Source: Clostridia bacterium
GTDB taxonomy: Bacteria; Bacillota; Clostridia; UBA1381; UBA9506
NCBI GenBank assembly: GCA_017546245.1
Contig: JAFYXI010000019.1
Coordinates: forward strand, 1 to 39,619
Direction of reading: 5' to 3'
Length of the DNA: 39,619 bases
In this document: piece after piece, positions 36,067-39,619 of the stretch
Numbering within the stretch: position 1 is the first letter of the stretch
Layout of the letters: the number at the start of each line of letters is the position of its first letter
Notes under the pieces: generated by a model
Databases searched by the model: none
The model's input: only the letters and a program-made list of their open reading frames with translations
Told to the model about the DNA's origin: nothing
Position numbers and translations under genes: made by a program

Positions 36067-37890
36067 TTACTGTTGTTTTTTCATTCTTCCGGCTAACTTG
36101 TCACGGTCGCTTTTTGATAATATTTTTTTGCGCAATCTTATGGACTCGGGAGTAATTTCAACAAGCTCATCATCTGATATAAATTCAAGACATTGCTCCA
36201 GACTTAATATAAGCGGCGGCGTGAGTTTTACAGTATCGTCGCTGCCTGCTGCGCGCATATTGGTTACATGCTTTTTCTTACACACATTAACTGTTAAATC
36301 CTCGTTTTTAGCATTTTCGCCAACTATCATTCCCTCGTATACGTGTACGCCGGGTCCTACAAATAATCTTCCTCGCGTTTCGGCATTTACAAGTCCGTAA
36401 GTAACGGTATCGCCGGTTTCCCAAGCAATCAATGAGCCACGGTCACGCATTTCAATTTCACCGCGATATTCACTGAATCCGTCTAAAACAGAATTCATAA
36501 CACCATTACCTTTAGTGTCGGTTAAAAACTCGCTGCGATAGCCAATTAAACCTCTTGACGGAATTTTAAATTCCAATCTCATATATCCACCATCGGTTGG
36601 GTGCATATTAGTCATTTCAGCTTTTCTTGAGCCGAGCTTTTCTATTACGTTACCGGCAAATTCTTCAGGAACATCAATAACTAATTCTTCGATAGGTTCA
36701 AGAATTTTTCCGTTCTTTTCTTTAAAAATAACCTGCGGACGTGATACCTGAAATTCGTATCCTTGTCTTCGCATTGTTTCTATCAAAATTGATAAGTGAA
36801 GCTCTCCGCGACCCGATACCTTAAAGCAATCCGCGCTGTCGGTTTCTTCAACTTTAAGGCTAACGTTTGTTTCAAGTTCTCTGAAAAGACGTTCTCTTAA
36901 GTGTCGGCTTGTTACAAAGTCACCTTCCTGACCGGCAAACGGACTGTTATTAACTAAAAAGTTCATCGATATTGTCGGTTCATCAACCTCTATAACAGGA
37001 AGAGGGTCGATGTGCGATGAATCACATAAGGTTTCGCCTATATTAACATCACCAAGACCGGCTATGCTGCATATATCACCTGCAGTAACCATTTCTGTTT
37101 CCTGACGCTTCAGACCGTCAAAGGTATAAAGTCTTCCTACTTTAACATTTGCAGTTGCGCCGTCGGCGCGGCAAATAGATATGTTTTCACCATATTTAAT
37201 AGAACCGCGTGCAACTTTTCCTACAGCTATTCTTCCTATATATTCATCATAGTCTATGTTAGATACAAGCATTTGAAGCGGCGCACTTTCATCACCTGTA
37301 GGTGCGGGAACATACTTTAATATAGTATCAAAAAGAGCAAGCATATTATCTTCCTGTTCGTATGTTTCGTATCCGCTTGTTCCCTGTTTGGCCGAAGTAT
37401 ATATAATAGGAAAATCAGCCTGCTCGTCACTTGCCCCAAGCTCTATAAACAAGTCAAGCACTTCATCAATAACTTCTGACGGTCGAGCCTGCGGACGGTC
37501 AATTTTATTAACAACCACAATAGGTTTTAAATCAAGCTCTAAAGCTTTTTTTAATACAAAACGTGTCTGAGGCATTGCACCTTCAAACGCATCCACTACT
37601 AACAAGACGCCTTCAACCATACCTAAAACACGTTCAACTTCTCCACCAAAATCGGCATGCCCCGGGGTGTCCACAATGTTTATTTTAACTCCGTTGTAAT
37701 GAACAGAAGTATTTTTGGATAAAATAGTTATTCCGCGTTCGCGCTCTAAGTCGTTAGAGTCCATTACGCGTTCTTCAACCTGTTCGTTATCGCGATAAAT
37801 ACCGCTGTTTTTTAAAAGCACATCAACCAAAGTGGTTTTTCCGTGGTCAACGTGTGCAATGATTGCTACATTGCGAATGTTTTCTGCCAT
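36067..37890 (-). CDS. typA: Translational GTPase TypA/BipA
   Basis: Ribosome-binding GTPase of the EF-G-like family, involved in ribosome assembly and stress adaptation. The start is the ATG behind GGAGG, giving 607 residues; the frame extends 39 codons upstream without a ribosome site and over the lysA promoter. G-domain motifs: [10 protein letters not shown] (G1), [15 protein letters not shown] (G3), NKIDRPQAR (G4), with domains II, III and V and the C-terminal TypA domain ([19 protein letters not shown]) following. Confidence 0.97.
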
Positions 37891-37924
37891 TTTTAAGCCT
37901 CCAAGAAAAATAGTACAACTATTT

Positions 37925-37952
37925 ATTTTATCACAAAATCCACAAAAGTCAA
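37925..37952 (-). promoter_or_regulatory. Probable promoter of typA
   Basis: On the minus strand TTGACT (37947-37952), 16-base spacer, TAAAAT (37925-37930). It is divergent from the lysA promoter, with -35 boxes 8 bases apart. Confidence 0.6.
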
Positions 37953-37960
37953 ATATAAAA

Positions 37961-37989
37961 TTGACAACTTGCTGTTTTTTTGTTAAAAT
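37961..37989 (+). promoter_or_regulatory. Sigma-A promoter of lysA
   Basis: Consensus TTGACA (37961-37966), 17-base spacer and TAAAAT (37984-37989), about 35 bases before the lysA start; this leaves no room for a lysine riboswitch. Confidence 0.8.
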
Positions 37990-38023
37990 ATATAACATAT
38001 TGCGCAAAAAAGGAGAAAAAGGT

Positions 38024-39325
38024 ATGTTTATATCAAAAAATCTGGCTGTTAATGAAAAAAATCATTTAACAGTTGGCGGAATTGATGCCGTAGAACTTGC
38101 CCAAAAATACGGTACACCATTATATGTTATGGATGAAAATTTAATAAGAGAAAACTGCCGACTGTATAAATCTTCAATAGATAAATATTACAACTCAAAC
38201 GGTCTTGCTCTTTATGCAAGCAAGGCTTTTAGTTCGCTTGCGATATATAAAATTGTAAATGAAGAAGGTATGGGAATTGATGTTGTATCCGGCGGCGAAC
38301 TTTATACAGCGTTAAAAGCAGAGTTCCCTGCTGAAAAAATATATTTTCACGGCAACAACAAAACAAAGGATGAGCTTAAAATGGCTTTAGACAGCGGTGT
38401 AGGTCGCATTGTTGTTGATAATTTAACCGAGCTTTCTGTTCTTAACGAGCTTGCACTTTCAGAAAATAAAACTGCTGACATTTTGTTCAGAATTAAGCCC
38501 GGAATAGATGCCCATACCCATAGCTTTGTAATGACCGGTCAGATTGATTCTAAATTCGGTGTTGCACTAGAGACCGGAGAGGCTTTTGAAATCATAAAAA
38601 CTGCAAGCGAAATGCAGGGTGTGAACGTAGTTGGTATTCATTGTCATATTGGCTCTCAGATTTTTGATTTAAAGCCGTTTGAGCAAGCTGCAGATGTTAT
38701 GATGACATTTATGGCAAAAATTAAAAACGAGCTTAAAATTGAGCTTTCTGAGCTAAATTTAGGCGGCGGATTTGGAATAAGATATGTTGAATCAGATACT
38801 CCTATTGAATATGATAAGTATATGGAAGCAGTAAGCAAAGTTGTAAAAGCTTCTGCTGTAAAATATGATTTGAAGCTACCTAAAATTATAATGGAGCCGG
38901 GTCGTTCTATTGTTGCGTCAGCCGGCACAACGCTCTACACTATCGGTTCGGTAAAAGAGATTCCAAATATACGCAAATATGTTGCAGTTGATGGCGGAAT
39001 GGCTGATAATCCGCGATACATTCTATATCAATCTGAATATGATTTTGTCGTTGCCAACAAAGCAGGCAATGACAAAACCGAAACTGTGACAATAGCAGGA
39101 AGATGTTGTGAATCTGGTGACCTTTTAGGTGAAAATGTTAAGCTTCAGAATGCCGAGGTGGGAGATATTCTTGCTGTACTTGCTACCGGTGCTTATAACT
39201 ATTCAATGTCAAGTCACTATAATCGATTGCCTAATCCTGCTGTTATAATGATTAAAAACGGAAAAGAACGAGTTATAATCAAACGCGAATCTTACGAAGA
39301 TTTGGTTAAAAACGACTTGTTTTAG
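38024..39325 (+). CDS. lysA: Diaminopimelate decarboxylase
   Basis: The last step of lysine synthesis: meso-diaminopimelate to lysine plus CO2, PLP-dependent. The start is the ATG after AAAGGAG, giving 433 residues; the frame is open further upstream but without a ribosome site. The PLP Schiff-base Lys67 sits in LYASKAFSS; HCHIGSQI, the glycine loop LNLGGGFGIRY, EPGRSIVASAG and the CESGDLLG active-site Cys motif are intact. It diverges from typA and is followed by a palindrome and a structured element. Confidence 0.96.
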   Translation: MFISKNLAVNEKNHLTVGGIDAVELAQKYGTPLYVMDENLIRENCRLYKSSIDKYYNSNGLALYASKAFSSLAIYKIVNEEGMGIDVVSGGELYTALKAEFPAEKIYFHGNNKTKDELKMALDSGVGRIVVDNLTELSVLNELALSENKTADILFRIKPGIDAHTHSFVMTGQIDSKFGVALETGEAFEIIKTASEMQGVNVVGIHCHIGSQIFDLKPFEQAADVMMTFMAKIKNELKIELSELNLGGGFGIRYVESDTPIEYDKYMEAVSKVVKASAVKYDLKLPKIIMEPGRSIVASAGTTLYTIGSVKEIPNIRKYVAVDGGMADNPRYILYQSEYDFVVANKAGNDKTETVTIAGRCCESGDLLGENVKLQNAEVGDILAVLATGAYNYSMSSHYNRLPNPAVIMIKNGKERVIIKRESYEDLVKNDLF

Positions 39326-39336
39326 ACAATTAAAAT

Positions 39337-39381
39337 AAAGGAGCTGTAGCAAAATGAAATTCATTTTGCTACAGCTCCTTT
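39337..39381 (-). terminator. Long palindrome, terminator-like on the minus strand
   Basis: The perfect 22-bp arms are followed on the minus strand by TATTTTAATTG, as in an intrinsic terminator; on the plus strand the stem is followed by GGGCTGG and so is a poor terminator for lysA. Confidence 0.5.
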
Positions 39382-39581
39382 GGGCTGGAAGGAAAATAGC
39401 GCAGTACTCTTTCGAGTATCATCGGGCACTAAGAGCAAAGCATCGTTACACTCGCTTTGTCAAAGTGCCCAGTGTTACTGGACAAACTGAACCCGTAGGG
39501 GTCACCCGAAGGCGTACGTGGGTACGTCGAGAGGTGAAGTTTGTTCAAAACACAAGGCATTATAAAAAAGGAATTCGTTAA
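39354..39581 (+). CDS. Doubtful 75-residue basic reading frame inside the structured element
   Basis: The frame has an ATG about ten bases after AAGGAG, so it could be translated, but both site and start lie inside the palindrome's first arm. The product has 19 Lys/Arg and only 3 Glu, no Asp, no recognisable domain, and a segment of three consecutive Arg near residue 53. The many hairpins across the frame suggest the nucleic acid structure is what matters and the frame may be fortuitous. I list it because it would otherwise be annotated as a hypothetical gene. Confidence 0.2.
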   Translation: MKFILLQLLWAGRKIAQYSFEYHRALRAKHRYTRFVKVPSVTGQTEPVGVTRRRTWVRREVKFVQNTRHYKKGIR

Positions 39582-39593
39582 ATAACGAATTCC
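39570..39593 (-). terminator. Perfect 11-bp hairpin with minus-strand T-run
   Basis: GGAATTCGTTA / TAACGAATTCC with a two-base centre; on the minus strand TTTTTTATA follows. It may end a gene lying to the right of the window, or form the right edge of the structured element. Confidence 0.6.
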
Positions 39594-39619
39594 CACATTA
39601 AGTTTTGAGTTATTTTAAC

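Follow-up and report, generated by a model that had tools for sequence, protein, structure and literature searches.

A family of folded, non-coding and probably non-autonomous mobile elements sited at terminator hairpins in Clostridia

The stretch of DNA analysed here, referred to below as the window, comprises 39,619 nucleotides of the Clostridia contig JAFYXI010000019.1 and ends at the contig end. Close to this end lies a lysA-like gene for a PLP-dependent decarboxylase (37832-39325, + strand), the stop codon of which is 11 nt away from a palindromic hairpin at 39337-39381. The 45-base perfect palindrome described in the first-pass annotation was confirmed, with 22-nt arms and 1 nt between them. 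No other perfect inverted repeat with a short loop in the window is as long, the next best having arms of 14-15 nt. With its A-tract and T-tract, the palindrome is of the bidirectional intrinsic-terminator type. Directly 3' of it, a mobile element on the + strand begins at 39382 and is interrupted by the contig end at 39619; these boundaries were set by copies with different flanks and by empty sites.

The 5' end of the element, GGGCTGGAAGGAAAATAGCGCA (39382-39403), forms the 5' strand of the closing helices P1/P2, and pairs with a 3' end ...TGCGCATTTTGCTACAGCCC that is missing from the window. It is followed by a lineage-specific insertion at 39405-39479, with two extra hairpins and a net length of ~72 nt, which is shared by four copies of the own genome and one of the sister species G002. 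BLAST block boundaries show that this segment is absent from most copies, which makes it an optional extra module; it was observed at L028, L029, L030 and L009, in only some copies. To judge from its presence in some copies, the junction appears to tolerate added helices. Next comes the conserved three-way-junction core (39480-39546), which is supported by covariation on 21 and 82 copies and by a covariance-model match at 39454-39566 (96.2 bits). Within the core we find P4 (GGACAAACT/AGTTTGTTC) with tandem G.A and an R-Y pair, the variable hairpin P5 (39491-39503), a CCC/GG.G pairing, and P7 (GGCGTAC/GTACGTC). The 5' strand of helix P3, ACACAAGGC, is located at 39550-39558 and has its partner GCCTTGTGT in the missing part, while P8 (39570-39593, 11 bp) is an internal hairpin whose sequence varies in other copies. 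All of these parts are on the + strand.

Compared with complete copies (e.g. L033:1467-1697), the copy in the window is ca 70-75 nt short of its 3' end. In L033 and L034, which are both complete, a further 70-75 nt follow, ending in ...GCCTTGTGTGGTGTGCGCATTTTGCTACAGCCC. Because the window ends at the contig end and this part is missing, the first-pass annotation saw an incomplete element lying between a host-type terminator hairpin and an internal helix. The unit that it proposed, bounded by the palindrome and a closing 11-bp hairpin, has to be redrawn, since the element starts at 39382 and extends beyond 39619. The 11-bp hairpin is real, but it is the variable helix P8 and closes nothing; the true ends of the element are a closing stem of the GGGCTG...CAGCCC type, the 3' strand of which is missing here. 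The palindrome is not a boundary of the element either. Other copies have unrelated hairpins at its place, and the same hairpin type also occurs alone, the 33-nt core of the palindrome being present at 7 genomic places, of which 2 are without the element. It is not a part of the element, as two empty sites retain their hairpin. On this evidence, we assign 39337-39381 as a predicted terminator and docking hairpin outside the element.

The GC content of 39382-39566 was measured to be 48.6%, somewhat below the earlier hand count of ~51% over ~185 bases, and the tract is indeed richer than the whole window (37.2%). The hairpin-dense character of the region was also borne out. The + strand of 39337-39619 folds at -115.6 kcal/mol with z = -10.99, and none of 200 shuffles was as stable; for the - strand, z = -9.84.

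We now consider the fold in the family as a whole. Complete copies measure 205-263 nt, and nearly all of them have complementary ends although the letters differ from copy to copy, the end pairs being for example GGGCTG/CAGCCC, GTGCTG/CAGCAC, GGGGAT/ATCCCC and AGAGTGC/GCACTCT. The core reads GGACAAACTGAR-(hairpin)-ACCCGAAGNCGTAC-NNNN-GTACGNCGAGNGGYGAAGTTTGTTC and folds into a three-way junction that contains tandem G.A pairs. Over 21 copies, 97.0% of the cells of the core were found to be paired, as compared to 31-45% in slid controls, and compensatory changes are present, with 8 of the 22 pairs changed on both sides. For the column pairs of P2 and P3 in 82 copies, mostly 94-100% were paired versus 45-83% expected from column composition, and one outer P3 pair was 80% paired versus 45% expected. 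These alignments indicate that the closed + strand fold, consisting of the P1/P2 ends, the three-way junction and the P3 arm, is kept by compensatory changes. G.U was counted 233 times against 18 for A.C, and the + strand was the more stable one in all 63 copies compared; the + strand is therefore the folded one, either as RNA or as single-stranded DNA.

Some variants of the fold were also observed. A subfamily (L023, L026, L083 and L096) has lost hairpin P5 (GATAAACTGAATCCC...), and at L190/L229 (G002:C255) the apical loop of P7 in one copy holds a foreign segment of ~190 nt. At L166 (G170:C2, genus g74), there are degenerate tandem arrays of short elements without the P3 arm, which suggests that the three-way-junction domain may be the minimal unit.

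The sequence is not single-copy. With 39337-39619 as query, BLAST matched the own genome 49 times, over the full length or block by block, and 37 of 61 relatives likewise had matches. The core covariance model matched the own genome 25 times; in the class Clostridia, it had matches in 46 of 291 sampled genomes, which belong to many families. In the phylum sample, where the filters were stricter and few candidates were scored per genome, only the own genome matched. An exact-pattern scan of GTDB genomes returned 58 loci. Almost all of these belong to MAGs of Clostridia/Oscillospiraceae from herbivore guts, one carrier being a Eubacteriales MAG from another source, and no copies were found in the phages, plasmids and viral contigs searched. 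Some copies are arranged in tandem at intervals of about 242 bp, and the next copy then begins after the 3' end of the previous one. Three copies in G029:C56 (at 22637, 41305 and 59924) are 18.6-18.7 kb apart, perhaps as a segmental repeat.

The earlier statement that the region fits no recognised riboswitch, tRNA or ribozyme family agrees with Rfam release 15, in which no family reaches its gathering threshold over the element; the sub-threshold matches, mostly to the palindrome, were taken as chance. The core sequence strings were not found in the literature searched, and neither the structured-RNA surveys nor the repeat literature searched contain a description of the element. As a separate observation, L104:899-1082 has an Rfam Gut-1 RNA match (71.2 bits) in a region downstream of an apparent transposase coding sequence; a further match of lower score lies on the opposite strand.

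We next turn to mobility, for which the concatenated flanks of the own-genome copies were searched against the genus. In the sister species G002, three orthologous sites are empty. At the L034 site, G002 has CTACTGTTTTTATTTG, whereas the filled site reads CTACTGTTTTTA, then the element (GGGCTAG...CTATAGCCC), then TTTATTTG. The L035 site is filled in both genomes, and at the gene orthologous to that of L033 the G002 copy (L190/L229) is in the opposite orientation. The window's own site differs as well, in that other terminators, but no element, stand after lysA in G002 and G001. In G111, near-identical copies sit in different flanks. Taken together, the sister species with empty sites, lysA included, show that the element is mobile. 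As to a simple target-site duplication, the sites disagree: TTTA is found on both sides at the L034 site and may be one, but not at L042, and the T-tracts obscure the junction. Compared with G002, the left and right flanks of some copies (L032, L033) are on different contigs or in different contexts; rearrangements may take place at copies of the element, which may also be a cause of contig breaks.

Of 103 copies, 54 have a strong hairpin that ends at most 14 nt upstream, compared to 0-3 at four control offsets. By this strict test about half of the copies are without a strong adjacent hairpin; others stand behind an imperfect hairpin or behind the 3' end of a preceding copy. The neighbouring genes were called with a simple ORF finder. 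The downstream gene was found to converge on the element in 65 of 72 copies (~90%), and in 56 of 72 (78%) no more than 15 nt separate its stop codon from the 3' end of the element. Where both flanking genes run the same way, 21 copies are placed between the stop codon and the terminator, and 6 follow the terminator. An abutting stop codon on the opposite strand is thus a more constant feature of the sites than a position after the terminator. Because the downstream gene converges on the element, the folded strand is antisense to the adjoining gene, and for 21 of 72 copies the genes on both sides are antisense to the + strand. This speaks against the folded strand being transcribed in the ordinary way at many sites.

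Within the same genomes, the 3' end of a copy is more similar to the right arm of its own hairpin than to those of other copies (9.05 versus 7.90, with 0 of 5000 permutations as high). Either the 5' end, being complementary to both, would help to choose targets, or the hairpin would have been converted later. Later conversion is suggested by the hairpins at lysA, L028- and L033, which differ between species. At L034 and L042, the hairpin is unlike the element's 3' end and is common to filled and empty sites, which does not help the choice of targets by the 5' end, and the two sites indicate that insertion can use a pre-existing hairpin. At L033, the alternative pairing, of the hairpin's left arm with the element's 3' end, is strong and amounts to -28.3, versus -33.8 for the hairpin itself.

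Several explanations of these observations have to be weighed. Chance hairpins in an AT-rich intergenic region, in genomes where terminator hairpins are common, have practically no probability left, as they are refuted by the homologues and the covariation; the sequence is multi-copy and conserved across many families, with a z-score of about -11. A lesser but real possibility is that the element is MITE- or REP-like and that a RAYT-type or IS200/IS605-type Y1 (HUH) transposase recognises its hairpin ends and moves it in the form of single-stranded DNA. The imperfect terminal inverted repeats, the hairpins, the strand asymmetry and the insertion beside a hairpin without clear duplication are all consistent with this, and the own genome has two RAYT-like genes. 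However, the own RAYT gene is not flanked by the element, contains a GTAG-type palindrome of its own and matches NCBIfam REP_Tyr_transpos below the cut-off, no Y1/RAYT match was obtained in carriers G007, G028 and G033, and the conserved unpaired core and the G.U bias resemble RNA. RAYT/Y1 was rejected as a common mobiliser because it is absent from some carriers and the own RAYT comes with its own palindrome. The reading frame of the RAYT-like transposase gene at L159:1459-1944 (G000:C19) contains GTAGGGGAGGGTCTCTGCGCCCTCCCG-type palindromes; the same type of palindrome precedes element copies in L037, L041 and L044.

A retroelement resembling a group IIC intron, with an RNA copy entering after terminators by reverse splicing and reverse transcription and with the 5' end as guide, is considered very unlikely. 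Group IIC introns do insert right after rho-independent terminators (PMC8919778), the 5' end of the element is complementary to a terminator arm, and its 3' end matches the arm of its own hairpin. Yet there is no match to a group II intron family, neither a GTGYG start nor a domain V was seen, and a search for reverse transcriptase (PF00078) found none in G007, G009, G013 and G033, which are element-rich and near-complete, nor in other carriers, so that it was discarded as a common mobiliser. Both reverse transcriptase and Y1/RAYT are absent from G007 and G033, each absence being uncertain in fragmented genomes, and no mobiliser of these two kinds is common to all carriers. Among about 120 copies there was no long autonomous one with a transposase between the same ends, which does not prove its absence; for copies whose end was not called automatically, inspection likewise placed it near 200-290 nt. 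Another option is a functional RNA or 3'-UTR module acting in processing, stability or termination and kept by selection rather than selfishly, which would fit the conserved core, the position between stop codon and terminator, and a closing stem with a T-run behind it, which might act as a terminator in its own right. We judge it to be unlikely, in view of the presence or absence at orthologous sites, the varied neighbours, the tandem arrays, the opposite-orientation copy in G002 and the stable strand being antisense to the adjoining gene.

The window thus probably contains a truncated copy of a non-autonomous, non-coding mobile family of ~205-263 nt, sited at terminators in Clostridia. The first-pass suggestion of a self-contained mobile, REP/MITE-like or structured unit was right as to class, in view of the homologues, the covariation, the empty sites and the position outside Rfam, but not as to boundaries. 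As regards the mechanism and any RNA function, we infer that a candidate enzyme acting in trans would recognise the folded single strand, RNA or single-stranded DNA, which would then be inserted into the terminator T-tract. For the 5' end there would be two alternative pairing partners, the 3' end of the element itself and the hairpin's right arm, and it may in this way guide the choice of target. Insertion at a terminator would do little harm, and copies would accumulate for that reason. A plain MITE would not usually have a conserved core that resembles RNA, and this core could point to a role in the host. It is also conceivable, though quite unlikely, that the element is protein-less and RNA-based, its 5' end acting as a guide that frees the 3' end, pairs with the right arm of the terminator and directs insertion; if true, such an element would represent a new guide-directed class distinct from introns, and its folded core would be new as well.

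The trans-mobilised dispersed repeat that we favour can be compared to known systems. The bcr1-bcr18 repeats of the Bacillus cereus group are dispersed non-coding repeats of 100-400 bp, present in many copies and mobile without a known enzyme, with a T-rich motif (TTTAT) at the ends (PMC6542083). The element shares these traits, including T-rich ends, but belongs to another taxon, and nothing in the results points to a relation between the two, the comparison being one of descriptions; docking at stop codons and terminators and a three-way-junction core are not described for bcr in PMC6542083. Group IIC introns insert immediately after intrinsic terminators and are present in many copies in Firmicutes (PMC8919778), and the element likewise lies just 3' of a terminator hairpin, strictly in 54 of 103 copies and in more when imperfect hairpins or a preceding copy are counted. 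Unlike these introns, it has neither ribozyme domains nor an encoded protein, and it has paired ends and a length of 205-263 nt. With REP/REPIN plus RAYT systems and MITEs it has in common that they are short, non-autonomous, palindromic, intergenic and trans-mobilised repeats, and with MITEs also the terminal inverted repeats. It is longer than these, with a closed multi-helix fold and a conserved core, and in contrast to REP/REPIN it has no GTAG tag as a defining tail and does not track the presence of RAYT. Similarly to Rfam IS605-orfB-I and Gut-1, it is structured, bacterial and sometimes linked with mobile DNA, but no Rfam family covers it at gathering score. The element lacks traits that define group II introns and RAYT-linked REPs, and by analogy it would work as a trans-mobilised dispersed repeat, comparable in placement to group IIC introns (PMC8919778) and in style to the bcr repeats (PMC6542083).

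This is apparently an undescribed structured, non-autonomous mobile element of about 240 bases, new to Rfam and to the literature searched. The family is abundant in uncultured gut Clostridia and is probably behind many contig breaks in such MAGs. Its docking between terminators and stop codons is very precise, and its strongly conserved fold has no known enzyme or function, which makes the question of what moves it directly testable. It would be a new example of selfish or RNA-like DNA settling where harm is least.
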